From NCBI RefSeq assembly GCF_001981305.1, contig NZ_MSCW01000009.1, forward strand, positions 124,001 to 188,000: a DNA stretch of 64,000 bases. Direction: 5' to 3'. Source of the stretch: Marinobacter lutaoensis. Lineage in GTDB: Bacteria > Pseudomonadota > Gammaproteobacteria > Pseudomonadales > Oleiphilaceae. This document shows positions 10,467 to 24,213 of the stretch, one piece after another; the first letter of the stretch is position 1; each line of letters begins with the position of its first letter. Position numbers and translations under genes: made by a program. The notes beneath the pieces were generated by a model, which ran no database searches, was not told the origin of the DNA, and worked only from the letters and a program-made list of their open reading frames with translations.

Positions 10467-10487
10467 TGTGGTGAGGGAGAAAGGAGC

Positions 10488-10781: not shown

Positions 10782-11161
10782 AAGAGCTAAGGACCGAAGA
10801 TTACCTTGAGCACATAGTGGATTCCTCCGGGGATATTTTGAGCTTCACCAATGGATTCACCCTGGAGGCATTCAAGGCCGATCTGCGGACCCAGAAAGCC
10901 GTTGTAATGAGCATCATCGAGATTGGCGAAGCGGCTACGAAGATCGCGGCAAGTGATCCGGATTTTGTTGCCCAGAATGATGGCTTGCCCTGGTCGCAAA
11001 TGCGGGGCATGAGGAACAGGATTGCTCACGGTTACTTCGATATCGACCTGGATATCGTCTGGCAGACCGTGGTCAGCGCAATACCTGCGCTGAACCAGCA
11101 GGCCGAAGACCTACTTAACGAATTGCGCGAGGGGTCGGAGCCTGGCCCTTCACCAAACTAA
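10778..11161 (+). CDS. hepT: HepT-like HEPN ribonuclease toxin
   Basis: 127 residues, helical. The HEPN RNase motif R-x4-H-x-Y is present as RNRIAHGY near residue 83-90, so the catalytic Arg, His and the AMPylated Tyr are intact. It overlaps the MntA-like gene. The first array motif lies 4 nt after its stop, so this pair is either the first cassette or an anchor at the edge of the array. Confidence 0.85.
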   Translation: MKELRTEDYLEHIVDSSGDILSFTNGFTLEAFKADLRTQKAVVMSIIEIGEAATKIAASDPDFVAQNDGLPWSQMRGMRNRIAHGYFDIDLDIVWQTVVSAIPALNQQAEDLLNELREGSEPGPSPN

Positions 11162-11192
11162 TTGAATGGAATCCGTACCTAGAGGAATTGAC

Positions 11193-11627
11193 GTGACAAC
11201 CGCAACTAAAAAAGAACTCTTCCCGAGATTAAATAGTTACATGAAACCCATCCGTATTAGCAGACAGATATTGTGGCTGGGCCTATTCGGGTATTTGATG
11301 CTAATCCCCATTCTCGCTGAGCATAATGTCCTGCCACCCTTCTCGTTAACCTCACCCATTTGGCTGGCGGTGATTTTGAGCGTTACGGGTGACCTCGTAG
11401 CGTTGGTTTGGATTGGCAGCAACGGCGTGTATGGCGTGTTGCATGGTCCGCAGCGGGAATACAGGAATGCTTTGCAGCAGCTACCGAAAGCCGATCTTCT
11501 TAAAATGGCTGAACACTACCCGGAACTTTCTGAGTCCGAGCGTAGAAACCTCTGTCAAGTTCTTAACCAGAAGCACCCTGGGTGGACCGAGAAGGTTTCC
11601 GCAGACACACGGCTAGGTTTGTCCTGA
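11193..11627 (+). CDS. Cassette gene: small membrane protein, unknown
   Basis: 144 residues from the GTG at 11193, preferred because AGAGGAA lies upstream; an in-frame ATG at 11166 is inside the array motif. Two hydrophobic segments are seen near residues 25-45 and 57-78, with a soluble C-terminal half (about 85-144) containing a short helical EHYPELSESERR stretch. Not recognised. Confidence 0.6.
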   Translation: MTTATKKELFPRLNSYMKPIRISRQILWLGLFGYLMLIPILAEHNVLPPFSLTSPIWLAVILSVTGDLVALVWIGSNGVYGVLHGPQREYRNALQQLPKADLLKMAEHYPELSESERRNLCQVLNQKHPGWTEKVSADTRLGLS

Positions 11628-11657
11628 CGACGGGAAATGGGAAAACGGAGAAGTTCT

Positions 11658-11918
11658 ATGTCTCGTGACTTCAAAATCATTCTGCTTCTGGCCGTAGCCC
11701 CTCTCCTTGCGTTCTGGGGGTGGCAGATTGGTTTCATTGGATCTCAGCTGGCACTTGGGGGGGCACCTGACCAGTTCGCGCTCCTTCCTGGCCACTGGGG
11801 ATGGCACTTGGCCAGCCTGGTTTTGGTGGCGATAAAGTTCGTGGTCGCTATAGCGCTTCAGCCGCTTATCTGGGTGCAGGAATTTCTCAACAATGACGCC
11901 GGCAAACACCGAAACTGA
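11658..11918 (+). CDS. Cassette gene: two-helix membrane protein, unknown
   Basis: 86 residues from the ATG at 11658 with a GGAGAAG ribosome site. Hydrophobic segments lie near 6-28 and 48-72, separated by a Gly-rich loop. The upstream motif (11638) contains an in-frame ATG that would add seven residues. Not recognised. Confidence 0.6.
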   Translation: MSRDFKIILLLAVAPLLAFWGWQIGFIGSQLALGGAPDQFALLPGHWGWHLASLVLVAIKFVVAIALQPLIWVQEFLNNDAGKHRN

Positions 11919-11972
11919 ATTATTGGAAACCGGCAGAACGCCAATAGACTGGTTGAGGTAAGGGAGAGCGAC

Positions 11973-12281
11973 GTGAAAGACCCTTCGGTTATTTCCTTTC
12001 GAGCTGAGTGTGAGAAGGACTGGCTGGACCTCCAGAATGAATTGGATGCAGCCAGTATTAATTACACTGTGGCGGCTCAGGACGCAGATATGGGGGAGCC
12101 AGAAATTGAATTAGTGCTTGGCGATGGTTTCGGTATCGAGGACGTGTTTATTGCAATGACGAAGGTTCTTGATGGACACGTTATGTGCGATACGGTTCGC
12201 CCAATCCCACTGAGCGAAAACTCACTGATTCGCCGGTACAACTATAAGGAAATGCCCGACAACTGGATGGATGATGAGTAA
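11973..12281 (+). CDS. Cassette gene: small acidic soluble protein, unknown
   Basis: 102 residues, GTG start with GGGAGAG upstream. Strongly acidic and without membrane segments, ending NWMDDE. The first 60 residues look like a small alpha/beta fold. Flanked by motifs at 11923 and 12291. No family recognised. Confidence 0.6.
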   Translation: MKDPSVISFRAECEKDWLDLQNELDAASINYTVAAQDADMGEPEIELVLGDGFGIEDVFIAMTKVLDGHVMCDTVRPIPLSENSLIRRYNYKEMPDNWMDDE

Positions 12282-12315
12282 GGCGACTAATTGGAATCCG
12301 ATTAAGGAGAAATAA

Positions 12316-12648
12316 ATGATTTCAAACCCGAAAACATCAGCCGATTTTGACAAGGAAATCGAGGCAACCCTCAGACGGGATGTAGACTCTGTGGTTATCG
12401 GTGGTGCTTTGCAGCGTCCCGCCAGCGCCTCGTTGATTGAAGACACCGGACATACCGTTCATATCGAAAGCGTTCGGATCACGCTCCCGCTGCTGAAGAT
12501 TCAGCCTGTGCGAAACAGCTCGCCAGCTCGATACGAATACTACCGCAAATTGATTACCAGTCACCCCGGTTCGCAGTTACCGCGTTCAAAGGTCATCCGG
12601 CGTAGAAATTTCGGACACCTGGTCGCAATCAACATGCCGCCTGCTTAG
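12316..12648 (+). CDS. Cassette gene: small soluble protein, unknown
   Basis: 110 residues, ATG with AAGGAGA ribosome site. The N-terminal half is acidic and helical; the C-terminal third is basic (SKVIRRRNFG). The stop is 3 nt before the next motif. Not recognised. Confidence 0.6.
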   Translation: MISNPKTSADFDKEIEATLRRDVDSVVIGGALQRPASASLIEDTGHTVHIESVRITLPLLKIQPVRNSSPARYEYYRKLITSHPGSQLPRSKVIRRRNFGHLVAINMPPA

Positions 12649-12666
12649 TGATGGGAAATCGAAATC

Positions 12667-12867
12667 ATGAACGATGAGATAACGCTGAACGGGCTTCAGG
12701 TAACCCATTTGAACGATGTCACTCAAGGGATGGTCGAGACCTCCCCGAAAATCTGCGGCAACTGGCGAAAATCATGGGTTATGCAACTTCGCCGCAAACC
12801 GGGCAGCTTTACATTACCCCGCGGTTTCCGCCTCAAGAAATCAAAGCCGAAGACTGAATACAGGTAA
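12667..12867 (+). CDS. Cassette gene: 66-residue basic protein, paralogue of the gene at 20533
   Basis: Shares LNDV-QG-VETSP, CGNWRKS-VM-LRR-PG and LPRGFR blocks with the protein at 20533-20733, over about 45 residues at roughly 65 percent identity. The conservation in protein and spacing shows the frame is real. There is no strong ribosome site; the ATG follows the motif by 5 nt. Stop TAA abuts the next motif. Small, basic, possibly nucleic-acid-binding; function unknown. Confidence 0.62.
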   Translation: MNDEITLNGLQVTHLNDVTQGMVETSPKICGNWRKSWVMQLRRKPGSFTLPRGFRLKKSKPKTEYR

Positions 12868-12891
12868 TGGCAAATCGGGGGTTCCGGGGAA

Positions 12892-13182
12892 ATGGTGGAT
12901 TTACTCTTTTTTGTGATGACAGGGCTTATTAAGGCCATGGGTACTATTTTCTTCATGGCCCTGCCTTGGGTTGCGTGGCGCAAGGGATCTGGAATCCGCG
13001 TTCTCGCGTTGACGGTGATCGCTATTAGCGTTGCGGCTTTGCTCTGGTGGCCTTTCGCCTCTGGCGCGGAAGGGTTTGCGCAGATGTTCAGGCAAATGTG
13101 GTGGCTGTCTGTGATCTTCCTCGTTTGTGCCCCTCTGGGAGTGCTGGCGCACTATAGACGCGAAAAGCAGACGATCAACTAA
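12892..13182 (+). CDS. Cassette gene: three-helix membrane protein, unknown
   Basis: 96 residues, ATG after GGGGAA. Three hydrophobic segments near 2-25, 33-55 and 65-85. The preceding motif at 12868 is the variant TGGCAAATCG, the same variant that overlaps the start of the full recombinase at 51627. Not recognised. Confidence 0.6.
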   Translation: MVDLLFFVMTGLIKAMGTIFFMALPWVAWRKGSGIRVLALTVIAISVAALLWWPFASGAEGFAQMFRQMWWLSVIFLVCAPLGVLAHYRREKQTIN

Positions 13183-13211
13183 GTTGGAATTCGATTAACG
13201 GAGCTTGATAC

Positions 13212-13523
13212 ATGAGTGAAATGAGAACGATCATCGGAAGCCTGCAACAGTCTGGCCTGATAGTCCAAGGGCTGACTCTGGATCAGATTGAAGAGCTGCT
13301 GAGCAACGATCAGCGGCCAGCCAAAGAGCAGTTCATTGCATTGATGGCTCAAGGTCGCGCCTATGGAATTTATTTATACCAGGACCAGGCTGGATTTGAT
13401 CGTGATGAGTTCGCCCGGAAGCTGGGGGAAATTGGGTTCGGGAAAGATGAAGCAAAGGCAGTGATCGCGAACTTGCGACCAACGCCAACACCAGAGCTGT
13501 CTGCTCTGGGCGACCGTGACTGA
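13212..13523 (+). CDS. Cassette gene: small soluble helical protein, unknown
   Basis: 103 residues, ATG after ACGGAGC. Predominantly helical, no membrane segment; a region LTLDQIEELLSN resembles an amphipathic helix. The stop is 2 nt before the next motif. Not recognised. Confidence 0.6.
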   Translation: MSEMRTIIGSLQQSGLIVQGLTLDQIEELLSNDQRPAKEQFIALMAQGRAYGIYLYQDQAGFDRDEFARKLGEIGFGKDEAKAVIANLRPTPTPELSALGDRD

Positions 13524-13547
13524 CATTGGAATGCGGAGGAAATCGCG

Positions 13548-13802
13548 GTGATTAAGCCAGACGATAGTGGAGTATCGATAATTTGTGGAAGCCTGCTGTT
13601 TATAGCAGCTCTTGCTTGGGTTCGGATAGATGATGCCGCCCCCTTATGGTTCCTGTTACTGCTGGCATGCGGTGGAACCTTTTTGGTCACCTATCCCCTT
13701 TTTACCCGGAACCTTATCGTAAAGGGTCTGATCGAACAGGGCGAAGATCCACAAGCGGTAAAGCAGCGCTGGAAGATCAACCTCGGTTTTATTCAGATCT
13801 AA
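13548..13802 (+). CDS. Cassette gene: two-helix membrane protein, unknown
   Basis: 84 residues, GTG start with GGAGGAAA upstream. Hydrophobic segments near 10-27 and 32-50, then a charged tail with a short helical EDPQAVKQRW segment. Not recognised. Confidence 0.6.
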   Translation: MIKPDDSGVSIICGSLLFIAALAWVRIDDAAPLWFLLLLACGGTFLVTYPLFTRNLIVKGLIEQGEDPQAVKQRWKINLGFIQI

Positions 13803-13812
13803 CCAACTTTTG

Positions 13813-14397
13813 ATGGGAAACCGCGTAAACGAGGCGGCGCACCTGAAGGTGTCCGATGTGTTCTACCGCGATGGCGGGCTGAAAGAGGTATTTATAATAC
13901 GAGGGGCCACGACTAAGACTGATCAGTACCGTCCCGGCTTTATCCTCGCAAAGCAGCACAGGGAGGCTCTTATAGCGTGGCGGGATCAAAGAGTGGCAGA
14001 GGGTGGATTCACTTCGTCGGATGGCTCCTATGGTGGTCTCGATCCCGATTCCGACCTTATCCTTGGTCGCAGAGGTAAGACCTGGAGGAGGCTAGCTTTC
14101 AACGATAAAAAGTACAAGACCAGTCGTGGAGAGGTAGTGAGCACCAAAGTCTGTGGCTCGCTTGAAAATCTCGTGAGAGAGCTGCTTAAAGGCGCTGGAT
14201 TGAACTACGGTTCGAGCCATTCAGGTCGAAGGACTCTCGCCACCTGGCTTGATCGCAAAGGATATGACCTTGAGCTCATCCAATTGATATTGGGCCACCG
14301 GAATCCTGACATGACACTGGAGTACATCGACCCAGATCTACCGAGAATCAAGGCAGCGTTTCAGAACATTTGGGCTGGTGTTAAGCCTTCTGCATGA
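13813..14397 (+). pseudogene. Tyrosine recombinase catalytic domain, truncated at the array motif
   Basis: About 194 residues carrying a complete catalytic set: first Arg in GNRVNEAAHL, Lys region ATTKTDQYRP, H-x-x-R in SSHSGRRTLATWL, GH in LILGHRNP and the nucleophile in TLEYI. The whole N-terminal core-binding domain, and about 40 residues that even FimB-size recombinases have before the first Arg, are missing. The frame begins exactly in the motif at 13814, whose bases encode G-N-R with the catalytic Arg codon overlapping its end. It has no ribosome site. It looks like the 3' part of a recombinase gene cut at the array site; whether it makes protein is unknown. Confidence 0.7.
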
Positions 14398-14424
14398 CGG
14401 TTTCACAAAATATAACTGCTTACG

Positions 14425-14481
14425 ACTAGACATATATGTCTAGTATGATAGAGTGAGGGCAACTAGACATATATGACTGGT
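14425..14481. promoter_or_regulatory. Pair of CATATATG-centred palindromic operator candidates
   Basis: A perfect 20-bp palindrome at 14425-14444 and a near copy at 14462-14481 whose right arm is imperfect; the first 14 bp are the same. The second overlaps the start of the helix-turn-helix gene at 14473. This is the usual position for autorepression by the encoded protein; the role is inferred. Confidence 0.6.
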
Positions 14482-14646
14482 CGAAAGATGACAGCTTTTC
14501 ATCAGATTGCACGCGAGAAAGGCTGGACGCTCGTTGAAATAGGACAGCGATGGGGAGTAAGCGAACGGCAGATGAGCCGAGTTGCAAACAACCCAAGTCA
14601 GAAAGATCTCGATGCAGTGCGGGGGCTTCCCGCAAAGAACACATAG
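14473..14646 (+). CDS. Cassette gene: 57-residue helix-turn-helix DNA-binding protein
   Basis: ATG at 14473. A helix-turn-helix is visible at about residues 20-40: LVEIGQRWGVSERQMSRV. The rest is a short tail with LDAVRGLP. Two palindromes overlap and precede its start, suggesting it represses itself. The TAG stop is part of the next array motif (TAGGAAAACG). It is the only gene in the array with an obvious own regulatory region. Confidence 0.72.
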   Translation: MTGRKMTAFHQIAREKGWTLVEIGQRWGVSERQMSRVANNPSQKDLDAVRGLPAKNT

Positions 14647-14667
14647 GAAAACGGTTGGAGAGTGGAT

Positions 14668-14808
14668 ATGAACGAAGACTTGCAGGCAACAACAGAAGAT
14701 CTCATGGAGCGTGTTGAACAGATGAAGGCAAAGGAGAAGCGCTTTTTTGCCGGTCTTCTCGTTGCCATACCGTTTGGTGTGATTCTCTATCTCGTGTTGA
14801 TGGCTTAA
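14668..14808 (+). CDS. Cassette gene: 46-residue single-helix membrane peptide
   Basis: ATG at 14668. An acidic/coiled N-terminal half (MNEDLQATTEDLMERVEQM) precedes one membrane helix, FFAGLLVAIPFGVILYLVLMA, ending at the stop. TAA abuts the next motif. Small size and tail-anchored layout resemble regulatory membrane peptides; function unknown. Confidence 0.58.
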   Translation: MNEDLQATTEDLMERVEQMKAKEKRFFAGLLVAIPFGVILYLVLMA

Positions 14809-14830
14809 CTGGAAACCGGGAGTTTCTGTC

Positions 14831-15034
14831 ATGGCAAACTGCCCTATCAACGAGCAAACAGCGGACGGCTCTGTAGTCGGACGGTGTTATTTCCATCTCG
14901 CTGATGGCCACACGTGCCCTCGGCACGGGGATGTCTCTCCGGAGATCGATAAATTCGAGCGGGAAGGAAAGCTGACCCTAGAAAATAATCTCCGCAAGCG
15001 GCGTGGTGAGCCATTGCTGGGAATCAATGAGTGA
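14831..15034 (+). CDS. Cassette gene: 67-residue Cys/His-containing protein, unknown
   Basis: ATG at 14831. The central GRCYFHLADGHTCPRHGD segment has Cys and His residues spaced as in a small metal site, followed by a helical charged tail. TGA directly abuts the next motif. Zinc binding is possible but not shown. Confidence 0.6.
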   Translation: MANCPINEQTADGSVVGRCYFHLADGHTCPRHGDVSPEIDKFEREGKLTLENNLRKRRGEPLLGINE

Positions 15035-15064
15035 TGGGAAATCGAATCATTAAGGAAAATACAA

Positions 15065-15286
15065 ATGGCGATTGATGATCTTGTTGCAGGGGCAGCCGAT
15101 AAAGTTGAGATCATTGAGCACTCTACTGAGGCAGTAAAAGCGTTTACAAGGGATCTTGATACACACGGCAACACAAAGGTGGAGCTGACCCCCGTTCACC
15201 TTGAGGCACTTCAGCAAGGTAAGTGCATCGCGATTTACGATGGTGAATTTTCGACGTTCATAACCGCGCACATTTCAGAAAACTAA
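15065..15286 (+). CDS. Cassette gene: 73-residue acidic protein, unknown
   Basis: ATG at 15065, AAGGAAAA upstream. Soluble alpha/beta-looking, with LHLEALQQGKCIAIYDGEF-like C-terminal strand-helix pattern (VHLEALQQGK then IAIYDGEF). Not recognised. Confidence 0.58.
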   Translation: MAIDDLVAGAADKVEIIEHSTEAVKAFTRDLDTHGNTKVELTPVHLEALQQGKCIAIYDGEFSTFITAHISEN

Positions 15287-15303
15287 GATTGGAAACCGAT
15301 TTT

Positions 15304-15555
15304 ATGACCAACGAGCAGTTTCTATTGATGATGCTGGCCTTCGTCGCTCTCACTGGAGTGGTGCTGGCGATACATACCGCCAGACGGCTCGAAAAAACCA
15401 AGCGCTGTCTGCTTCAAATGAAGCACGACATCAAAAGTCATGCGATGGAAAAGAGAAAATCCCCTGAGCCGAAGGATTTGGTAGTTAGTGTAAATAAAGC
15501 GCTTGTGGCTGCTGGGCATAGCAGGCCTGACGCAACCGAAGGCTCCGCAACATGA
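15304..15555 (+). CDS. Cassette gene: single-pass membrane protein, unknown
   Basis: 83 residues from ATG 15304. One N-terminal membrane helix (about 5-23) and a basic cytoplasmic-type tail with HTARRLEKTKR. An in-frame TTG inside the motif (15289) is a less likely start. Not recognised. Confidence 0.58.
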   Translation: MTNEQFLLMMLAFVALTGVVLAIHTARRLEKTKRCLLQMKHDIKSHAMEKRKSPEPKDLVVSVNKALVAAGHSRPDATEGSAT

Positions 15556-15641
15556 CAATGGGAATTCGGTCAGGGTTGCGGATTTTCCAACCCGTGAGAA
15601 GCTGGAAAGCACGTTGAAACAGATGAATGGAGAGATTGTAG

Positions 15642-15833
15642 ATGGCCGATAAAGCACTGATCGAACAGCTCTGGGAAAGCGATGCAGCTTCAGCTTTGAC
15701 GAATCAGGCGGCACGCGAAATTGAAAAGCTGGAAGCCCAGCTGCAACAGGCTATCAATGAACGTAATGAGGCCTGGTGCCAGCTTGAAGAAGCCGGAATC
15801 AAAATCCGTCCGTACGATGACAGCGCGGCATAG
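15642..15833 (+). CDS. Cassette gene: 63-residue coiled-coil protein
   Basis: ATG at 15642 with GGAGAGA upstream. A helical coiled-coil stretch (REIEKLEAQLQQAINERNEAW) fills the centre. The first 25 coding bases and part of the leader are repeated at 18683, where they are joined to an unrelated tail. TAG abuts the next motif. Function unknown. Confidence 0.6.
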   Translation: MADKALIEQLWESDAASALTNQAAREIEKLEAQLQQAINERNEAWCQLEEAGIKIRPYDDSAA

Positions 15834-15844
15834 TTGGAAAACGC

Positions 15845-16105
15845 ATGACCAAACAGAATGAAAGCTGCAATGATTCCAGACCCAATCCAGTGAAGGCCGT
15901 TGCAGAAATGGAGACCAGTGATTCGGTCTGGAAAGATCGAGCCACTGCGTTCATGGAGACACTCGTTCAGATCGACGACATTTCGTGGGCCGGGATGGCC
16001 AGGCAGACAGATAACAAGGATGCCTTGGACTTTGCTCGGCTCGGCCGCGATGGTCGCCGCAAACAGTTTGAGGCTGCTGCGAAGGCTAAGGCCAACCGGA
16101 AATAG
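15845..16105 (+). CDS. Cassette gene: 86-residue soluble protein, unknown
   Basis: ATG 1 nt after the motif at 15834. Contains an FMETLVQIDDISWAGMARQ helix pair and a lysine-rich tail. It has faint resemblance to the protein at 22245 (FMERY, DDLSF, MGRE). Not recognised. Confidence 0.55.
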   Translation: MTKQNESCNDSRPNPVKAVAEMETSDSVWKDRATAFMETLVQIDDISWAGMARQTDNKDALDFARLGRDGRRKQFEAAAKAKANRK

Positions 16106-16106
16106 G

Positions 16107-16229
16107 ATGGGAAAATGTGACGCGGCGGTGTCAGACAAGATCATTAGCCACGTTGCTCAAACCAAAGACCGTAGCCAATTATTGCGAGAGGATAAGTCAG
16201 GATGCAGGAAAGACTCAAGCCAGAGGTAA
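16107..16229 (+). CDS. Cassette gene: 40-residue basic peptide (tentative)
   Basis: ATG at 16107 inside the motif copy at 16108; stop 4 nt before the next gene. An overlapping GTG frame (16117-16233) of 38 residues ends on the next ATG and is an alternative. Neither has supporting similarity, so coding is uncertain. Confidence 0.3.
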   Translation: MGKCDAAVSDKIISHVAQTKDRSQLLREDKSGCRKDSSQR

Positions 16230-16232
16230 ATG

Positions 16233-16976
16233 ATGAGCGATAAGTCGAATCCGAGAGAAGAGCTTCAGAACACCCTTGCGGACCTCCAAAGTTCCATTGG
16301 AGCAGAGCTTGCCGAACTCCAATCGGGCAATTTGCCGGCAGATCCTTACTCGGATTTCTATGACCAACAAGGAAAGGCGCTCTCTTCAGCTTCAGCACTG
16401 TACTCGCCACTTGCAGCTCACGACATTCAAGTGCTACTTGCAGTGGCCAAACATCGTAAACGTGAGCGCGGGGACAAGCAGGGTTATTCGCCTATACCAG
16501 ATGTCGCAGAGACTGTTGGATTCTCAACCAAAGTGGTAGGAAAGGCGCTCAAGCGCTTCGAGGCAGAACAGCTTGTCATCCTCTCTTCCTGTCGGAACTG
16601 GGTAAAGCTGATCGACTCAGGTCTCAAGGTTGTCGATGACGTGATGCAACCCTGGCGAGAGGTGATCGAATTGCGTCAACAGGTATCAAAGCTCACATCA
16701 GTTCTTGAGGCGTTCCATATTGATGTCGATGCAGCGTGCGAAATGGTCAACACGCCCGAACACTTCTGGCTCCAAAGAGCCGGTTTGTATGGCGCAGCGT
16801 TGATGCAGTCCTTCGGAAAGCTCACCCCGGATATGCACAATGAGGATAGCTCTCCGCTAATGCATAAATGGCTTTGGGAACTACCAGGTTATACCTCGCC
16901 AGAAACAGGGGCAGCCGAGCGGCATCAGCACGATGTAAACGAAAGGCGACTTCAGCCTTTGATCAAATCAGACTGA
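16233..16976 (+). CDS. Cassette gene: 247-residue protein with a winged-helix-like region
   Basis: ATG at 16233 with CAGAGG upstream; the largest cassette gene. The central region (about 65-130) reads as a winged helix: HDIQVLLAVAKHRKR, DVAETVGFSTKVVGKALKRFE, then LVILSS. A coiled coil follows at about 145-165. It resembles MarR/replication-type wHTH proteins in layout, but no family is recognised. The next motif is 2 nt after TGA. Confidence 0.65.
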   Translation: MSDKSNPREELQNTLADLQSSIGAELAELQSGNLPADPYSDFYDQQGKALSSASALYSPLAAHDIQVLLAVAKHRKRERGDKQGYSPIPDVAETVGFSTKVVGKALKRFEAEQLVILSSCRNWVKLIDSGLKVVDDVMQPWREVIELRQQVSKLTSVLEAFHIDVDAACEMVNTPEHFWLQRAGLYGAALMQSFGKLTPDMHNEDSSPLMHKWLWELPGYTSPETGAAERHQHDVNERRLQPLIKSD

Positions 16977-17003
16977 TATGGGAAAACGGGAGGGAAGGTA
17001 TGC

Positions 17004-17081
17004 ATGACGACAAAAGGTAGCGCTGATTCTATGAGGAACGCCCATGATCCCAATAAACCGTATTTTCCTTACTCAGATTGA
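17004..17081 (+). CDS. Cassette gene: 25-residue peptide (tentative)
   Basis: ATG at 17004 with AGGGAAGG upstream, ending 8 nt before the next start. MTTKGSADSMRNAHDP then a short aromatic tail. The good ribosome site is the only support. Confidence 0.3.
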   Translation: MTTKGSADSMRNAHDPNKPYFPYSD

Positions 17082-17089
17082 GAGCGGAG

Positions 17090-17437
17090 ATGAGTGGTAT
17101 GCCACATAGCGAAGAACTACAAAGCAACATAGATGAGGTACTTCAAAATCAGGACTTTAAAACGGGAGCAGCGGAAGCTTTCGAACGGCTAGGACTCTCC
17201 AGTCTGGAGGATGTTCTTGGGCATGGGTTCCCATCGAATGCCGTATTTCTGGAGCATTCTCTTCAATTGGTAGGAGTGCTAGTTAAAGGGTTTGTCAATG
17301 GAGACAGTCGAATCGACTCGTTTCTCCATGATGCAATTAACGCTACGAACAGCGATTCGATGATTGCCCATTCACGGAGTTACCTAAAAATGCTGGTGCT
17401 ACCAACTAAAAAGAAAGGAGAAGACCATGGAATTTGA
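17090..17437 (+). CDS. Cassette gene: 115-residue helical protein, unknown
   Basis: ATG at 17090 after GAGCGGAG; a second ATG lies 9 nt on. Mostly helical, no membrane segment. It overlaps the next frame by 4 nt. No array motif separates it from the next gene except a doubtful one, ATGGAATTTG, at 17427. Confidence 0.55.
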   Translation: MSGMPHSEELQSNIDEVLQNQDFKTGAAEAFERLGLSSLEDVLGHGFPSNAVFLEHSLQLVGVLVKGFVNGDSRIDSFLHDAINATNSDSMIAHSRSYLKMLVLPTKKKGEDHGI

Positions 17438-17715
17438 TATCAACTATTGAGTTTCAAGCGAACGACCAACACGAAAAAGATCGGGCAGAACGCATCAATC
17501 GTGAGGTTGGACGAATACTGATGCAGGTTGCTGATCGCACTAACGGCTATCTGGTTTGGTGCGACAAACCTCAATACGACAAACCTAGCGAATCCTGCGT
17601 TTTTAAACCCACACTTCTGATTCCTTTTGGTTACGCGAAATCAGTAGCAGGAAGGGATTACAAGCGATGGAAAGAACATCTTAACGGTTTGCTCGAAGCT
17701 GCATCTGAAGACTAA
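17434..17715 (+). CDS. Cassette gene: about 93-residue protein, start unclear
   Basis: The frame opens at a TTG (17434). A better start signal, AAAGGAG plus ATG at 17427, reads a different frame that stops after seven codons, so either a small frameshift has occurred or translation couples from the upstream gene. The protein has an alpha/beta look with Cys and Trp residues (YLVWCDKPQYDKP). TAA abuts the next motif. Confidence 0.5.
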   Translation: MISTIEFQANDQHEKDRAERINREVGRILMQVADRTNGYLVWCDKPQYDKPSESCVFKPTLLIPFGYAKSVAGRDYKRWKEHLNGLLEAASED

Positions 17716-17781
17716 TGGGAATCCGCCAGACAAATATTTGGCTTTGGGCGTAAGGTACAGCATTTAAATAAGGACCAACCG

Positions 17782-18003
17782 ATGGCTCTAAAAAAAAAGT
17801 GGTATGTCAGGTTTATCCCTGGTGGTACCCGTGAATCCACTAAGGTCGTCACCAGTGAGCGCAGCCCAATGATTCGCTCTTTCGCACTTGACAATATTTC
17901 AGGCATAGAACAGAGCGGCTGGAGAGGATGGGTTGAAGACGAGGCTGGCCATCGAATTTATGAAACGGCTGCTGAAAAACGATCCAAAGACAAATTTGCT
18001 TGA
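17782..18003 (+). CDS. Cassette gene: 73-residue basic protein, unknown
   Basis: ATG at 17782, AAGGA upstream. Starts MALKKKWYVRFIPGG, a strand-turn pattern like small beta-rich domains. TGA abuts the next motif. Not recognised. Confidence 0.58.
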   Translation: MALKKKWYVRFIPGGTRESTKVVTSERSPMIRSFALDNISGIEQSGWRGWVEDEAGHRIYETAAEKRSKDKFA

Positions 18004-18025
18004 TTGGAAACCGAGAGGTCGAACG

Positions 18026-18211
18026 ATGCATCACTCTTTGAAGAGTTCAATCCAGGGCGGCACGACCTGGCGACACAAGAAAACAGGCAAAGAAGTTTTT
18101 GTCCTGGAGACTCCCGACTCGAAATATGCTCGGGTTACGTTACGCCACGGTAGTGGCCGTGAGACTCGAAAAGAGCAGCACTACTTTCTTTACGAATACG
18201 AGCCAACGTAA
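18026..18211 (+). CDS. Cassette gene: 61-residue basic beta-rich protein, unknown
   Basis: ATG at 18026, GAGAGG upstream. Contains TWRHKKTGKEVFVLE and ARVTLRHGSGRET, a likely small barrel. TAA abuts the next motif (18212). Not recognised. Confidence 0.58.
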   Translation: MHHSLKSSIQGGTTWRHKKTGKEVFVLETPDSKYARVTLRHGSGRETRKEQHYFLYEYEPT

Positions 18212-18232
18212 TGGGACTCCGGGGGATCGACA

Positions 18233-18664
18233 ATGTTTTTAACAGATCGTGTTTCTGACCTCGAAAATCAGGTGCAGCTCTCCTGTGAATATCCCGGCCA
18301 GACACTGATGGTCGCTCTAGCGATCATACTAAACTACGACAACATGCAGAGCGCTCAGGACAAAGGCGCCGAATATTCGAACGCACTTGAGTGCAACATG
18401 GTGCCTGGCGCTGGTGATGCAGTCTGCATCGCACTTCATGAATTGGAAAAAGGTGTCAGCAAGGATTTAGACGCGAATCAGATGATCGCACAGTTGCATG
18501 CGCGCTGGAGCGAGTACGCTGGTCATCAGAAAAGCTACAAAGATCGTGTTGAATCGGGGATAAAGAAGGCAATGCCATTCGAGGCGGAGTTCAGATCGCG
18601 ATGGGATCTGTGGAAGTCTCGCTCCCAGTTGGGTATGAGCGCGGCTGGCAAAGTCTTCAGCTAA
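18233..18664 (+). CDS. Cassette gene: 143-residue helical protein, unknown
   Basis: ATG at 18233 after GGGGGAT. A moderately hydrophobic helix near 25-35 (TLMVALAIILNY) is probably buried, not membrane. Otherwise soluble and helical. The following motif at 18669 is decayed (ATGGAGATATCG). Not recognised. Confidence 0.58.
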   Translation: MFLTDRVSDLENQVQLSCEYPGQTLMVALAIILNYDNMQSAQDKGAEYSNALECNMVPGAGDAVCIALHELEKGVSKDLDANQMIAQLHARWSEYAGHQKSYKDRVESGIKKAMPFEAEFRSRWDLWKSRSQLGMSAAGKVFS

Positions 18665-18682
18665 ACAATGGAGATATCGAAG

Positions 18683-18781
18683 ATGGCCGATAAAGCACTG
18701 ATCGAACGATGGGGCTGGATCTGGCACGATCGGAAGACGGTTCAAATGGGCTCCACAGCGCAACTCTGCCCACGGCGTTAG
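18683..18781 (+). pseudogene. Chimeric remnant sharing its 5' end with the gene at 15642
   Basis: The first eight codons (MADKALIE) and part of the leader match the cassette at 15642 nearly exactly; the sequence then changes completely and stops after 32 codons. It is most simply read as a recombinant or deletion product between cassettes. The next 190 bp (18782-18972) contain no convincing gene. Confidence 0.5.
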
Positions 18782-18972
18782 GGTTGCTGAAATTACGCTC
18801 AAGAAAGCCTTTGCGGGGCTCAGAATCGGTGAGACAGCCGCATTCGGGACTCTTTTGCTGAGTTAGGTGCCACATAGGCGAGGCCCGGAGCCAGAGCATT
18901 AATGAAATCAGTGCCAATCGGGTGTCACTCACTCACGCACGCTCAGGAACAACTTGTGAGAACAGCATAGCT

Positions 18973-19104
18973 ATGTATATCTGCTTTTTTGAAGGTGAAT
19001 CAATGGGGCGGCGGTTTGACGATCCTGCCGAGATGGGGGCTGCGGTCGCTGAATTTCTGCACTCGAATCCGGGTAAGCACGTAAAAACTGAACTTTACAT
19101 CTGA
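18973..19104 (+). CDS. Cassette gene: 43-residue peptide, unknown
   Basis: ATG at 18973; a second ATG at 19003 follows GAAGGTGAA and may be the real start. Sequence MGRRFDDPAEMGAAVAEFL suggests a short helix. TGA abuts the next motif. Not recognised. Confidence 0.45.
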   Translation: MYICFFEGESMGRRFDDPAEMGAAVAEFLHSNPGKHVKTELYI

Positions 19105-19118
19105 TTGGAATTCGGATT

Positions 19119-19325
19119 ATGGACAAATTGAACGAAATCGCGCTTGCCCACTATGGCAAATTACTGGTCTTCGGTGGCGGCCTGGTGATGATGCCCTCTC
19201 TTTTCGAGCTGCAAAATGGATCACCAGTCGCACCTGAACCCTGGATCGGCATGATCTGGCTGACGGGTTGTACCATTTGCGGAACCGGCATCGTCTTCTG
19301 GAAGAAGTCTGTTTCTGGTTATTAA
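19119..19325 (+). CDS. Cassette gene: 68-residue two-helix membrane protein
   Basis: ATG at 19119, 4 nt after the motif at 19105. Hydrophobic segments near 15-28 and 45-62. Same length as the following cassette protein but not similar in sequence. Not recognised. Confidence 0.55.
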   Translation: MDKLNEIALAHYGKLLVFGGGLVMMPSLFELQNGSPVAPEPWIGMIWLTGCTICGTGIVFWKKSVSGY

Positions 19326-19345
19326 CAGCATTGGAATTCGAACTG

Positions 19346-19552
19346 ATGCGCGTTAACCAAGCTACCAAAAAACTGCTGATCGCCTTATTGCTTGTTATCA
19401 CTGGCATTGCAGTCGCATTGTATGGTGGCTGGAGGATGGATAAAGCAGTAATGGCAACACGCCACTTACCAACAGTTGGGATCGGCCTTTGTATTGTGAC
19501 GGCCGGGACAGTTGCGTTTTTTCGGTCACTTAGTGGCCAAGGGAAAAACTAA
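19346..19552 (+). CDS. Cassette gene: 68-residue two-helix membrane protein
   Basis: ATG at 19346, 5 nt after the motif at 19331. Hydrophobic segments near 9-27 and 45-60. No clear ribosome site, so the motif-to-start interval is very short. Not recognised. Confidence 0.55.
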   Translation: MRVNQATKKLLIALLLVITGIAVALYGGWRMDKAVMATRHLPTVGIGLCIVTAGTVAFFRSLSGQGKN

Positions 19553-19559
19553 CAAAGAA

Positions 19560-19665
19560 TTGGAATTCGGCAAACTTCGAGCATCACGACAACACCTAAC
19601 ATGGGAAATCGACAATGAAATCCCGAAAGAACAGGCAATGGCCTGACAAACGTAATGGGAATTCG
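19560..19665 (+). repeat. Three array motifs 42 and 54 bp apart (micro-cassettes)
   Basis: Full motif copies start at 19560, 19602 and 19656. The first interval has no open frame; the second holds part of a 21-codon frame (19615-19680) that runs through the third motif. These may be empty or collapsed cassettes, or the minimal unit the system can leave behind. A similar 50-bp unit exists in the second array (52234-52293). Confidence 0.65.
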
Positions 19666-19667
19666 GT

Positions 19668-19859
19668 ATGGCCGAACTAAGCAATGATGAAGCTGCCTTT
19701 CTAAAGGGTGTGTTGTTTGCTCTGTCGCAAATAGATCCTCGCTCTACTGAATACCGTGCAATTGTGCTTCAGGCCGGAGGGTTCGACTTACTGCGATCAG
19801 TCGCTGAAGAATACGATAGCGAGCACCTGGAGCGTGCCATCGAGGATGAACGGAAATAG
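19668..19859 (+). CDS. Cassette gene: 63-residue helical protein, unknown
   Basis: ATG at 19668, 2 nt after the motif. Helical with SNDEAAFLKGVLFALSQI and an acidic C-terminus. TAG abuts the next, variant, motif CTGGAGGCCG. Not recognised. Confidence 0.55.
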   Translation: MAELSNDEAAFLKGVLFALSQIDPRSTEYRAIVLQAGGFDLLRSVAEEYDSEHLERAIEDERK

Positions 19860-19871
19860 CTGGAGGCCGAT

Positions 19872-20261
19872 ATGACAGTTAGATCTGACACGAACACACC
19901 GCCACCACATCCTCTGTTTTTCGTGGGAATGCTGGCAATCCCGTTGAGTTTTATCTGGGGACCGATATTGATCCTGGCACCCTGCTGTTTGGGATGGTGG
20001 GCGCTCAAAATTGAAAAACCGAGACTGCTATCACGTCATGAAGCTGAGGTTGAGGGAGAGAGTATTGACCTGGGGAAGCACAAATATCCGTTGTCTGACT
20101 GTTCAATGACAAAGCCACGATTCTTCCCGTTCCAATATGGACTGCCTCAAGTGAGGCAGTTGGCAACCCTACAGCACATGGACAGCGGGACAACCCAGCA
20201 GTTCTGGATCATCACCAGACCATTTGGACGAACCACACTGCACCCAATCACTGAAGATTAA
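19872..20261 (+). CDS. Cassette gene: 129-residue membrane protein whose 3' end recurs in the second array
   Basis: ATG at 19872 after CTGGAGG. One long hydrophobic region near 15-42, then a soluble part ending GTTQQFWIITRPFGRTT...ITED. The last 24 residues, the stop and the downstream motif occur again, nearly identical, on the minus strand at 49920-49992, joined to different upstream sequence. This shows that the arrays exchange material. Function unknown. Confidence 0.62.
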   Translation: MTVRSDTNTPPPHPLFFVGMLAIPLSFIWGPILILAPCCLGWWALKIEKPRLLSRHEAEVEGESIDLGKHKYPLSDCSMTKPRFFPFQYGLPQVRQLATLQHMDSGTTQQFWIITRPFGRTTLHPITED

Positions 20262-20287
20262 GATGGGAATCCGCTATGGAGGAAAAG

Positions 20288-20503
20288 ATGCAAGAAAAGC
20301 AGGTTACCAATCCCGGATCTTTGGTGGTTGCGAAAGCACTATCTCTTATATCTGTTGTGGTCGCCTGCTTGTCAGGGCTTCACCAAATATTTGAGTGGAC
20401 CTTTTTCGATGCTGAGATTGTGGACCAGGTGTTCGGGGCCAGCCTTGTCCTAATGCTGATTGCCATGGCATTTAATGGTCATGCATATCACCAGGATGAT
20501 TAA
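20288..20503 (+). CDS. Cassette gene: 71-residue two-helix membrane protein
   Basis: ATG at 20288 with an ideal GGAGG 5 nt upstream; an earlier in-frame ATG (20276) overlaps that site. Two hydrophobic segments near 12-32 and 45-62. Not recognised. Confidence 0.58.
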   Translation: MQEKQVTNPGSLVVAKALSLISVVVACLSGLHQIFEWTFFDAEIVDQVFGASLVLMLIAMAFNGHAYHQDD

Positions 20504-20532
20504 CAAACATTGGAAACCGGAAACCCGAGATT

Positions 20533-20733
20533 ATGAGCAGGACGATTGATTTGAAACACATGCAGCGGCGTCAGCTTAACGATGTGGCTCAAGGGCCTGT
20601 TGAGACCTCACCGAATGTTTGTGGCAACTGGCGAAAATCTTACGTGATGCGTTTGAGACGTATGCCTGGCAAGTCGAGATTGCCTCGCGGTTTTCGAAAC
20701 CCTGTTTCAAGACCAACAGCCGAATTCGTCTAA
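20533..20733 (+). CDS. Cassette gene: 66-residue basic protein, paralogue of the gene at 12667
   Basis: Shares the VETSP, CGNWRKS and LPRGFR blocks with 12667-12867 and has the same length. The matching part spans the middle of both proteins; N- and C-termini differ. Two copies in one array, 8 kb apart, argue for cassette duplication followed by divergence. Function unknown. Confidence 0.62.
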   Translation: MSRTIDLKHMQRRQLNDVAQGPVETSPNVCGNWRKSYVMRLRRMPGKSRLPRGFRNPVSRPTAEFV

Positions 20734-20762
20734 GCAGAGACGATAACGGGCAACGCGGACGG

Positions 20763-21026
20763 TTGGTTCCTGACGATTTCTCGTGGCCATCGCCCCCCGA
20801 TAGCTCGTGGCAGTGGGTTGTCTGTGTTTACCCCGATGGCCTGTGTGATGTCGACCTTGTTCATCCGGTCAGTCGCAGATTTTGGTCAGAGGATAATGGT
20901 TTTATCGATCTACCCGACCTGGACCATTGGTGGTTCGAGAATATGGGCTTCACGATCATGAGAATGAGTCCGGCGATGAAAGTGCGTGAGGACCAGTCTA
21001 ACCCCCATCTATCATCGGTGAAGTAG
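20763..21026 (+). CDS. Cassette gene: about 87-residue Trp-rich protein, start uncertain
   Basis: The frame is open upstream into the previous gene; TTG at 20763 is the nearest plausible start and has no good ribosome site. The sequence is protein-like, with DSSWQWVVCVYPDG and PDLDHWWFENMGF. Its 5' end may have been lost when it was joined to the preceding cassette, as no motif separates them. Unknown. Confidence 0.45.
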   Translation: MVPDDFSWPSPPDSSWQWVVCVYPDGLCDVDLVHPVSRRFWSEDNGFIDLPDLDHWWFENMGFTIMRMSPAMKVREDQSNPHLSSVK

Positions 21027-21057
21027 CGAGAACATGGGAAAACGGGGAGGCTTAATA

Positions 21058-21543
21058 ATGGATCAACTAAAGAATCAGGGTAACGATCAACAGATATACC
21101 GCGTAGTCACTTGGTGGCTTATTGGTCTTGCATGTTTTGGCTTTGGTGGCGGAGTGGTAGCACCTTTGACCACCGAAGACCTGATGCTCGATATCGGTTA
21201 CGGAATCCTAGTGGCGAGGATAGTGCATGGTTTTATCCTGGGAACAATCCTCGGCGTTTCGATCTCGGCCCTATTGCTTGGGTTTAGCGCCCTCTGGGTT
21301 AGCGTTAAGCGCTACAACCCCGGCGCCGCCTCTTTCGGTGCAATGCTTATTGGGGGTGCCTTGATGCTTGGATTTGAGCGGCTTTTAGAGCCCGCACCAA
21401 ACACTGTCGCTGATGCGTTTGAACAGATGGGCCATGATATTGCTGCACTGCCAGTTCACACATTAGCGCTGGTACTCGCTGCCCTTGCCGTTGAGGGCCT
21501 GGCCTTCGCATGGCATAGGTACCGGCATCACGAACAGCAATAG
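21058..21543 (+). CDS. Cassette gene: 161-residue polytopic membrane protein, unknown
   Basis: ATG at 21058 with GGGGAGG upstream; the ATG in the motif at 21034 is less likely. About four hydrophobic segments: near 18-40, 52-76, 82-100 and 130-150. Not recognised. Confidence 0.6.
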   Translation: MDQLKNQGNDQQIYRVVTWWLIGLACFGFGGGVVAPLTTEDLMLDIGYGILVARIVHGFILGTILGVSISALLLGFSALWVSVKRYNPGAASFGAMLIGGALMLGFERLLEPAPNTVADAFEQMGHDIAALPVHTLALVLAALAVEGLAFAWHRYRHHEQQ

Positions 21544-21596
21544 TCCGCGCTCATCACAGAGCAGCCTAATATTGGGAATCGGGGCGTGGACAGACG

Positions 21597-22001
21597 ATGG
21601 GTGAATCAATGACTTCGATTACTGGAACAATCAACCCGGATCTTTACGCTGCTTGGCGACCGGGGCTGAGAGTTGTGGCACTTCTTGTTCTGGCTGGCGC
21701 TGGGCTGGTCATCGTTTCGGGGACGGGGAGCTTTGTGTTGCTGGTGATGCCTTGGCAGGCCCGACAGTCGGTGGAAAATCGCATCGAAATTACGATTCGA
21801 AGCAACGAGCTCGAAGCCATTGGGCGCGGTCGTAATTCTGAGGTTTCGCAGCGTCAGTGCGCGAGTAACGACAAGCTGTTCAGCAGTGATTTAAATCTGG
21901 TTGAAAATCCTCTTCACTTGAGAGAAGAGGTGGAAACATTGCTGTATTCGCTGGAGCTTCGATTCAAGCCTTTGGCTGAGCCATCGACCAACCATTACTG
22001 A
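21597..22001 (+). CDS. Cassette gene: 134-residue single-pass membrane protein
   Basis: ATG at 21597 or 21609. One membrane region near 25-50 followed by a soluble domain with a paired helix (LREEVETLLYSLELRF). The preceding motif (21573) is 29 nt after the previous stop and lacks the final C. Not recognised. Confidence 0.58.
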   Translation: MGESMTSITGTINPDLYAAWRPGLRVVALLVLAGAGLVIVSGTGSFVLLVMPWQARQSVENRIEITIRSNELEAIGRGRNSEVSQRQCASNDKLFSSDLNLVENPLHLREEVETLLYSLELRFKPLAEPSTNHY

Positions 22002-22018
22002 ATATTGGAAACCGGTTT

Positions 22019-22231
22019 ATGTTGGAAAGAATTACTAAACGTGGTCTCTGGATCATCATCGCAGTTCTTTTGGCCGCGCAGGCTCTGGATCTGCTCGCTT
22101 CAGGTATGAATTATTTCGTGGGTGATAGCGAGGCCAGTTTTATTCCGTTGCTGTTATCCCCGCTGGCTCTGGCAGCGTCGTGTGTCTGGATGGTAGCTGC
22201 GCTTCGCCGGAAAGAACCGTTCATCAAATGA
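22019..22231 (+). CDS. Cassette gene: 70-residue two-helix membrane protein
   Basis: ATG 4 nt after the motif at 22005. Hydrophobic segments near 10-30 and 42-62, basic C-terminus. TGA abuts the next motif. Not recognised. Confidence 0.57.
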   Translation: MLERITKRGLWIIIAVLLAAQALDLLASGMNYFVGDSEASFIPLLLSPLALAASCVWMVAALRRKEPFIK

Positions 22232-22244
22232 TTGGAAATCGACT

Positions 22245-22589
22245 ATGAAACCTTCTTGCGAGTTATCAGGCGAACAAATCGCCTCCCGATTGGTAGGGCT
22301 GATGCGAAGCAGCAACGACTCCAGTCCGTTCATGGAGCGCTATGCCGACTGTTTAGAGAAAGCGGCAGAGCTGGATGATCTTTCGTTTGTGCGAATGGGT
22401 CGGGAAGCAGAAGCTTTTGAAGAAGGTTTCAGGCATTTCGTTGCAGGGTTCCCTGGTGCACCGGCAGTGACCGTTCCGGAGGGCGAGCTTTTCGATATGG
22501 GTGTCTTCCTGGCGCGTGTCAATCGGGAGCTGCGAAAAGCACTTTTGAAGGGCTGGGCCGCTGCGATCAGGGCGAAGGCTCATCAGTAA
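22245..22589 (+). CDS. Cassette gene: 114-residue helical soluble protein
   Basis: ATG 3 nt after the motif at 22232. Helical, with FMERYADCLEKAAELDDLSF and a lysine/alanine-rich end. Slight resemblance to the protein at 15845. Not recognised. Confidence 0.58.
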   Translation: MKPSCELSGEQIASRLVGLMRSSNDSSPFMERYADCLEKAAELDDLSFVRMGREAEAFEEGFRHFVAGFPGAPAVTVPEGELFDMGVFLARVNRELRKALLKGWAAAIRAKAHQ

Positions 22590-22616
22590 CAACATGGGAA
22601 TCCGACCGAGGTAACT

Positions 22617-22952
22617 ATGACAGATAAATTCCGCGGAGATTTAGAGAATGACGATTCCGGAGAGATTGAGCAACTGCGCTCCCAGGCAGCCGAGCTTGAA
22701 AATAAGTCAACTACCGCCCGCGCCCGCATGTTCTGGGCTTTGAATGTCGCTCTCCTTTCACTGATCGGCCAAGGTCTGACCGGCAACTGGGAAACGCTTG
22801 CAGCGAGCACTGTATTGCTATTCCTGATGGGAATTGGCACTGACTATTACACTGAGAAACGACTCTGGAGCTTTTCTTTCTTTAGGGATTCGGTGAATTG
22901 CTTGGTGAGTGGCTGGAAGGCCCGACTGCGCCCAAAGTCAGCCACTGAGTGA
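22617..22952 (+). CDS. Cassette gene: 111-residue two-helix membrane protein
   Basis: ATG after GAGGTAAC. A coiled-coil-like N-terminus (EIEQLRSQAAELENKS) is followed by hydrophobic segments near 40-58 and 60-78. TGA abuts the next motif. Not recognised. Confidence 0.6.
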   Translation: MTDKFRGDLENDDSGEIEQLRSQAAELENKSTTARARMFWALNVALLSLIGQGLTGNWETLAASTVLLFLMGIGTDYYTEKRLWSFSFFRDSVNCLVSGWKARLRPKSATE

Positions 22953-22968
22953 TGGGAATCCGACTTTT

Positions 22969-23148
22969 ATGTCTAATCCGAGAGTTCTAGCGATAGGTTT
23001 TGCGATTCTCGGCCTCCTACTGGCTTACGCCGGATACAGCGGGGCGAGCGAGCATTACGGAAATTTTGAAGCCCTCTTGTTGGCGTGCCCTGGCCTGGGG
23101 ATGACCTTGGCAGGCATTGGTGTCTACGTCATCAAGGCAGGCGGGTAG
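22969..23148 (+). CDS. Last cassette gene: 59-residue two-helix membrane protein
   Basis: ATG 6 nt after the final motif (22953). Two hydrophobic segments near 5-24 and 36-56. No motif follows its stop, so the array ends here. Not recognised. Confidence 0.58.
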   Translation: MSNPRVLAIGFAILGLLLAYAGYSGASEHYGNFEALLLACPGLGMTLAGIGVYVIKAGG

Positions 23149-23230
23149 ATTTTTACGACCCCACAAGAGCGGGTCCAAGGGTAGAGAGACAACATCTTTG
23201 GCATCTTCCCGGCCCTAAAGAGCGGTTAAA

Positions 23231-24062: not shown

Positions 24063-24213
24063 AATCTCCTGCGGGTCTGGATCGAACAGGGTAGAAATCC
24101 AGGCACCCTCCTAACTTGAGAAACATTGGATGGCCAGAGTTTTCCGGAGTACCGGCGCTGACCTCATCTTGATTCTTCTATCGGACATCCGGATTGCAGC
24201 ATTCCCTATCCGT

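Follow-up and report, generated by a model that had tools for sequence, protein, structure and literature searches.

What organizes a run of tiny genes that, in a plasmid-like replicon of Marinobacter lutaoensis, follow one another on a single strand and are separated by a 10-bp motif, T[G/T]GGAA[A/T]NCG? In the 64,000-nucleotide stretch analyzed here (the window), about 34 such genes stand in one run. The original prediction, which described an integron-like array of about 40 tiny genes, was right about the same-strand array and too high in its count. The features of this region are the following:

9801-10466, forward strand: IntC, 221 aa, a small tyrosine recombinase relative at the array head (weak Phage_integrase match)
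10488-11161, forward strand: toxin-antitoxin pair, MntA-like (10488-10781) and HepT-like (10778-11161), separating IntC from the first unit
11166-23148, forward strand: small-gene array of about 34 units (ORF list and sequence; weak Pfam matches in 2 of 19 proteins)
11638-22962, forward strand: span of the 27 exact motif copies (motif search)
Exact motifs 1-9, forward strand, starting at 11638, 11923, 12291, 12652, 13184, 13526, 13814, 15035 and 15289
Exact motifs 10-18, forward strand, starting at 15559, 15672, 15834, 16979, 17716, 18004, 19105, 19331 and 19560
Exact motifs 19-27, forward strand, starting at 19602, 19656, 20264, 20510, 21035, 22005, 22232, 22595 and 22953
13814-14397, forward strand: IntB remnant, keeping the C-terminal portion of a small tyrosine recombinase and beginning at a motif copy (Phage_integrase match)
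19560-19611, forward strand: ORF-less or decayed unit, a pair of motif copies at a 42-nt spacing that enclose no ORF

Between 11160 and 23150, the forward strand holds 27 exact motif copies and the reverse strand none. The whole window has 33 exact copies on both strands against 3.5 expected, a number reached in none of 100 shuffles. Allowing up to one mismatch gave 40 forward-strand matches in 10800-23300. Seven one-mismatch copies lie, by reading, at gene boundaries (11166, 12868, 14644, 14809, 16108, 18212 and 21573) and, together with the exact ones, bring the array to about 34 copies, in agreement with the 35 or so first proposed. The gene products are largely unfamiliar: 17 of 19 window proteins had no Pfam match and two had weak, sub-threshold ones (a tiny HTH protein, and 8xMP for 22617-22952), while the MntA-like and HepT-like proteins scored 37 and 39 bits in NCBIfam, below the curated cut-off of 60.

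The motif keeps close to stop codons. Counting ORFs of at least 40 codons, 25 of the 27 exact copies begin within 0-10 nt of the preceding stop, a distance for which 7.4% of positions qualify (p = 1.7e-26); the motif is thus not equally common within genes, and the claim that most copies lie 0-11 nt past a stop holds. The two exceptions are 15672, within a gene, and 19602, preceded by a 42-nt ORF-less stretch. Direct abutment of stop and motif, put at ten or more cases, was found for 8 of the 27 exact copies, and reaches 11 only if the one-mismatch copies at 12868, 14809 and 18212 are added by eye. With its single orientation and its place after a stop and before a start, the motif could also be read as a signal for expression within a long operon, serving ribosome binding, mRNA processing or a regulator, exchange at it being incidental. 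In the Pseudomonas plasmids described below, indeed, the motif directly precedes the start codon, where its GGAA could aid ribosome binding. In the window, however, it holds its distance to the stop and not to the start (where a start was found, for 25 of the 27 exact copies, it lies 1-75 nt away), and several units carry a separate AGGAG-like sequence further downstream. Since this explanation also accounts neither for the conservation of the CG nor for an exchange point that is fixed (see below), we consider it improbable.

Is the array an ordinary or decayed integron with degenerate attC sites? The logic is the same, with one-gene units in a single orientation and a recombinase-type gene at the head. 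The window and its relatives share with integrons small, same-strand, mostly unfamiliar genes in interchangeable units, a recombination site right after each stop codon, and a tyrosine-recombinase-type gene heading many arrays. In contrast to integrons, the site here is 8-10 bp long and unfolded, and the head genes are not integron integrases, are co-oriented with the units and are in some cases truncated or degenerate. No attC-like fold was found at 28 motif sites of the window (mean z -0.06, 3 of 28 below -2) and no opposite-strand motif in the array, which bears out the predicted absence of attC-like folds; among Pseudomonas units, 5 of 36 have hairpins below z -2. Rfam gave no match across 9000-25000. 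Against the integron integrase model TIGR02249 (cut-off 265), IntB proteins scored 27.7 and 25.9 bits and IntA, a further recombinase of the window, 27.4; the window IntB remnant was unlisted and IntC had no match. An integron origin is, in our estimation, very remote.

To see how the units behave in relatives, we compared the window with other Marinobacter sequences. Four units recur elsewhere:

11638-11932, forward strand: unit in common with pSMR5, 81% identical over 296 columns, homologous from one motif to the next, the neighbours differing on either side
15052-15297, forward strand: unit in common with contig C46 of genome G102, 83% identical, the window side ending in the motif
19872-20274, forward strand: unit in common with genome G093, 81% identical, ending in the motif
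22233-22597, forward strand: unit in common with pMAQU01, 82% identical, with motifs at both window ends

Within contig C46, units 97.7-100% identical are repeated among differing neighbours, with joints within the motif; some of the repeat pairs belong to tandem repeats or lie within homologous genes of the ordinary kind. Across six Marinobacter stretches (blocks under 100 bp and ends at stretch edges omitted), 28 of 50 homology-block ends coincided with a motif in at least one sequence (9.7% expected) and 17 in both (0.2% expected), the other 22 lying away from the motif in both; in a further set, 54 of 68 ends were at no motif in either sequence. Forward motif counts in 124 genomes of the genus single out only G000 (34) and G102 (46), all others having at most 24 per strand.

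Similar arrays occur on Pseudomonas plasmids, with the motif in the form (A)GGAAWNCG. There, whole units bounded by the motif distinguish sister plasmids that are about 99% identical. In otherwise 99.2-99.3% identical sequence, pSE5419-1 and pPA7790 differ by about 1.9 kb, gained or lost with both ends exactly at motifs; between loci L128 and L130 one unit was replaced, its 842-bp copy in L129 being 99.5% identical; and in four sister plasmids the site is empty, with a single motif copy in it. Of the 38 block ends at seven P. aeruginosa and P. paraeruginosa loci, 27 fell within a motif on both sides of the comparison (0.7% expected) and 10 on neither, these counts and those of joints below omitting blocks under 120 bp or 93% identity and stretch-edge ends. 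Relatives therefore do differ by whole motif-bounded units that are interchangeable and carry one gene (C46, the pSE5419-1/pPA7790 pair and the seven loci), and these differences, together with the motif at stops, support the gene-cassette reading of the original prediction. As units at least 99% identical occupy different surroundings on different plasmids, the system appears to be recent.

The letters at the joints point to where exchange occurs. The variable letter N follows the left unit in 11 of 16 left-shared joints vs. 4 of 17 right-shared ones (p 0.015), and in Pseudomonas the last G follows the right unit in 12 of 12 vs. 5 of 10 (p 0.01), p-values that are indicative only, because the joints share sequences. 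Joints thus do not fall anywhere in the boundary: on these small numbers, they lie between N and the final G. Since these letters track the left or right unit, the exchange point is best placed at GGAAWN^CG, and from the joints in other plasmids the motifs of the window would exchange at the same step. Motif joints, recent gain, loss and replacement of whole units, and this apparent exchange position all emerge from comparison of related sequences.

We think it probable that the array consists of mobile gene cassettes exchanged by conservative site-specific recombination between motifs at GGAAWN^CG. A unit would start with the CG of a motif and end with the GGAAWN past the stop of its small gene (usually one gene per unit, in rare cases two or none), and recombination between two motifs would insert, remove or swap whole units; with exchange at this point, any unit could therefore follow any other, in one orientation. 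A dedicated recombinase presumably acts at the motif, the units may pass through a free form, and they are likely to be read from a promoter at the array head.

Which enzyme might do this? Many arrays are headed by small tyrosine recombinase relatives, IntB or IntC, which share the orientation of the units; in several arrays they are truncated or degenerate. The two are related (hhalign E 7e-7), and on pSMR5 a protein 84.6% identical to IntC heads a second motif array. Around 26 IntB loci, the same strand shows a modest enrichment of motifs, 65 downstream vs. 34 upstream. As to a primary, attI-like site beside the recombinase gene, the homology of compared pairs extends no further than the stop codon of IntB or IntC, and in genome G028 a motif copy overlaps the IntC stop. 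The catalytic R, K, H, R, H and Y of IntB are present in six aligned Pseudomonas sequences. Against such an enzyme, the window IntB is truncated, without the first 40 or so aa of its relatives, and IntC is without catalytic residues, the catalytic Arg I, both His and the Tyr being absent, by eye, from three copies inspected. The records behind L128, L129 and L130, which hold the freshest exchanges, encode an IntC-type protein and no full IntB; a 429-aa recombinase is common to all three. Genome G072 has two IntC genes without a motif array. An AlphaFold model of IntB (pLDDT 52.8) was too poor for use. Strong conservation around the motif was limited to about 11 positions in 40 aligned sites, hand-chosen from the matches with up to one mismatch, omitting one-mismatch matches inside genes. 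Neither a second arm nor an inverted repeat turned up at the motif, a short site by the standards of tyrosine recombinases. The array enzyme would, in our view, belong to the small (about 220 aa) IntB/IntC group, acting in cis or in trans.

The larger recombinase of the window lies in a second motif group:

49908-52625, reverse strand: smaller second motif group, with four exact copies (ends at 52625, 52293, 51902 and 49917) and one-mismatch copies interspersed
50365-51627, reverse strand: IntA, 420-aa tyrosine recombinase, inside this group

Relatives of IntA occur in 41 of the 124 genus genomes. As a candidate array enzyme it was rejected: 15 loci outside the window, taken from the stronger matches, hold two motif copies in total within 1.5 kb, and the Phage_integrase match of pSE5419-1 is IntB only. 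The four exact reverse-strand copies here and IntC at 9801-10466 all lie beyond the interval first described. The last 87 bp of unit 19872-20274 recur at 49908-49994.

Array plasmids pPA7790 and pHN148-P2 have no Phage_integrase or tyrosine recombinase match, which favours another explanation, in which the motif is a short conserved boundary and RecA or phage-like Bet/Exo exchange occurs at microhomology, selection keeping genes intact. In phages, where likewise a short gene-boundary motif joins unrelated modules, general recombination at conserved short boundaries is the mechanism proposed for module exchange (PMC3029335), and the Aeromonas plasmid pHX3 encodes Bet and an exonuclease of the lambda type close to a run of small genes. 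The joints described here, however, share only 8-10 bp and use the single step GGAAWN^CG without spreading; unlike the phage boundaries, they show one fixed step and the same motif core across several plasmid-host genera, and microhomology would not explain why the same letters, including CG, stay constant across genera. We regard this explanation as unlikely. Phage records gave no match to 15200-23100, and 2 of 50,697 matched one stretch of a P. siliginis array.

Other plasmid systems offer partial parallels. The pdif modules of Acinetobacter are discrete plasmid gene modules bounded by XerC/XerD sites of about 28 bp with two arms; the arrays resemble them in having plasmid gene modules delimited by a recombination site, and differ in that the site is about 10 bp, with conservation confined to about 11 positions and no two XerC/XerD arms. 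The integron-like elements in Pseudomonas rulB (9.4 and 16.2 kb) share plasmids, tyrosine recombinases and variable cargo genes with our arrays; they are inserted whole, with a 3-bp GAT repeat and, in contrast to the case here, no motif array in the part of the account available (PMC4542609). A search of the open-licence literature (subscription papers and preprints being outside it) found no description of such a system.

On balance, we lean towards a non-integron gene-capture platform that stockpiles small genes and trades them as cassettes via a linear site of 8-10 bp, TDGGAAWN^CG, with a minimal tyrosine recombinase or another enzyme at work; it would be widespread on Marinobacter and Pseudomonas plasmids and is seen in Stenotrophomonas. 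A like motif was noticed, by eye only, in Aeromonas and Microbulbifer, where the platform may perhaps occur too. If an enzyme does use so short and unfolded a site, this would be a gene-shuffling system distinct from integrons. It would then help to explain the origin of many small unfamiliar genes on conjugative plasmids and provide a simple rule to delimit them, and whether cassette stockpiling arose more than once would become testable.

The array and its motif are certainly real. Exact copies of T[G/T]GGAA[A/T]NCG occur 33 times in the window against 3.5 expected, and the 27 that lie between 11160 and 23150 are all on the + strand. When these 27 copies were placed against open reading frames of at least 40 codons, 25 started 0-10 nt past a stop codon, compared to 7.4% of positions (p = 1.7e-26), bearing out the proposed enrichment at gene boundaries; eight directly abut the stop codon. 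The next start, found for 25 of the 27, lies anywhere from 1 to 75 nt away. The motif thus tracks where one gene ends, not where the following one starts, which argues against a ribosome-binding site. The 40 hand-chosen sites share about 11 strongly conserved positions, A-T-K-G-G-A-A-W-N-C-G. Folding of 28 sites revealed no structure (mean z -0.06), in keeping with the earlier remark that long hairpins of the attC type are absent. The features in and around the array, and a second motif group, are as follows:

9801-10466, IntC, a 221-aa tyrosine-recombinase relative, upstream of the units
10488-11161, MntA/HepT-like pair (matches below cut-off), upstream of the units
13814-14397, IntB remnant, a second small recombinase within the array, whose surviving part begins at a motif
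49908-52625, - strand, smaller motif group around the recombinase IntA, from the motif search

The window is part of a 194-kb contig. Among plasmids it matches pMAQU01 and pSMR5 most closely, which suggests that the contig is plasmid-like and comes from a Marinobacter. As several arrays show, a toxin-antitoxin pair often separates the units from the recombinase heading the array. The window has an MntA/HepT-like pair there, pMAQU01 and pSMR5 a MazEF-type one, and P. antarctica, pQBR55 and pHN148-P2 a MazE/ChpB one; in P. donghaensis a RelE-type gene takes this position. Ahead of a 57-aa helix-turn-helix-like protein lies a perfect palindrome of 20 bp (14425-14444); the whole stretch (14425-14646) is 72-74% identical to sequences of Aeromonas pHX3 and Vibrio pFE10, there too upstream of small-gene runs, and may be an element that controls them. 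Elsewhere, the window carries the front part alone of an ISL3-type transposase, cut short (53563-54204, -), a BsuBI/PstI-type endonuclease adjoining an N6-adenine methylase as a restriction-modification pair (54209-56745, -), and a stretch (57009-58498) with 94% identity to a part of pMAQU01 whose annotated genes are an AbiEii/AbiGii-type toxin gene and a helix-turn-helix gene.

Judging by comparison with relatives, whole units are very probably exchanged at the motif. The motif arrays of pMAQU01 and pSMR5 follow an IntB remnant and the MazEF-type pair. A second pSMR5 array, in a locus of 6.5 kb with 11 exact motifs, has IntC at its head, the protein being 84.6% identical to that of the window. 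The unit at 11638-11932 has an 81% match in pSMR5, from motif to motif, with differing neighbours, and further window units have counterparts in pMAQU01 or in two Marinobacter genomes, G093 and G102. Contig C46 of G102 has 41 motifs on the + strand (11-letter form, at most one mismatch), 17 of them exact, against nine and none, respectively, on the other; its duplicated units, some 97.7-100% identical and others less alike, stand beside different neighbours, with their joints inside the motif. Six Marinobacter stretches, both motif groups of the window included, gave 50 homology-block ends, of which 28 coincide with a motif in one or both sequences (9.7% expected) and 17 in both (0.2% expected). 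Across 124 genomes of the genus, only G000 and G102 stand out by motif count.

Small-gene runs also occur on plasmids of several Pseudomonas species and Stenotrophomonas. Many of them have IntB or a remnant of it at the head, and (A)GGAAWNCG or a close variant stands ahead of many start codons. In a P. aeruginosa plasmid family of about 50 kb, the array's place is empty in four records, with one motif copy within GGCAAGGAATCG; one record has an IntB remnant, a MazE/ChpB pair and two more genes, followed by the last unit. Six small genes without IntB are present in pPA7790 and four others, and pSE5419-1 has IntB and more units. The difference of about 1.9 kb between pSE5419-1 and pPA7790 lies exactly between two motifs, the compared blocks being 99.2-99.3% identical. 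One replaced unit separates plasmid loci L128 and L130 (99.8-99.9% identical); the unit in question, 842 bp in L128, has 99.5% identity to one in L129. Relatives thus differ by whole motif-bounded units in these two pairs and in C46, as the original prediction required. Seven P. aeruginosa or P. paraeruginosa loci gave 38 block ends when an identity of 93% or more was asked for; 28 coincide with a motif in one or both sequences (16% expected) and 27 in both (0.7% expected), the loci being related and the ends not fully independent. The signal is weaker in nine loci of lower identity (14/68 in either sequence vs. 6.7% expected; 7/68 in both vs. 0.1%), where many ends are those of IntB itself.

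By eye, a like motif is present in Aeromonas pHX3 and Microbulbifer pTHAF38_a; the latter has a small-gene run (14668-18292 of its locus) with TAGGTGGGAATATG-like sequences ahead of starts, an IntB-like remnant upstream and an IntC relative inside. The Pseudomonas arrays have short blocks, GGAAAACGCTGCACACCACCGG...GGGCCTTTNGCAGTA, that are repeated both inside one array and from one array to another (5366-5409, 5975-6017, 9228-9294 and 17097-17161 of L040); these may be ORF-less units or a shared terminator. In Vibrio pFE10 a roughly 30-bp repeat, AAATCAAGGCAATACCGCCGCTACTTTGGAGA, is found ahead of three different genes (before 19257, 20092 and 21778 of L024). Runs of a 104-bp repeat lie beside the array in P. 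aeruginosa plasmids (L039, 6159 to 8070; L102; L103), their copy number varying between sisters.

The main rival is an exchange at short boundary sequences like the one that PMC3029335 proposes for phages. The position of the joints bears on this. At left-shared joints, 11 of 16 pairs have the same letter at the variable position N; at right-shared ones 4 of 17 do, the level of random pairs (27%; left vs. right p = 0.015). The final G in Pseudomonas agrees in 12/12 right-shared vs. 5/10 left-shared joints (p = 0.01); joint pairs share sequences, making both p-values indicative only. Since N follows the left side and G the right, the exchange point is placed between N and that G, at GGAAWN^CG, to within the C. 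General recombination over short identity would not be expected to keep to one fixed point, whereas a site-specific recombinase would, and a dedicated recombinase of the latter kind probably acts here.

The IntB/IntC group is a tentative assignment for that enzyme; these small recombinases are the best candidates, no more. Pseudomonas IntB (223-226 aa in two full copies) has no separate N-terminal domain, and six aligned sequences, including the window remnant, keep R, K, H, R, H and Y, the catalytic residues of the family. In IntC, Arg I, the two His and the Tyr are lost (three copies by eye: window, pSMR5 and pF011). Exchanges are freshest in L128, L129 and L130, whose records encode an IntC-type protein and a common 429-aa recombinase but no full IntB, and neither pPA7790 nor pHN148-P2 has a Phage_integrase match. 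Around 26 IntB loci on genome contigs, GGAAWNCG occurs downstream (up to 8 kb) 65 times on the IntB strand and 29 on the other, and upstream 34 and 16 times, respectively; three control patterns gave 22, 28 and 29 downstream on the IntB strand. One genome (G028) has a short motif array with IntC, one motif overlapping the IntC stop, and the two IntC genes of another (G072) are without a motif array.

Searches of an open-licence library turned up no account of such a system. In the way it works, the array resembles the cassette array of an integron. We do not file it as one, because neither a match to the integrase model nor a fold at the sites was found here.
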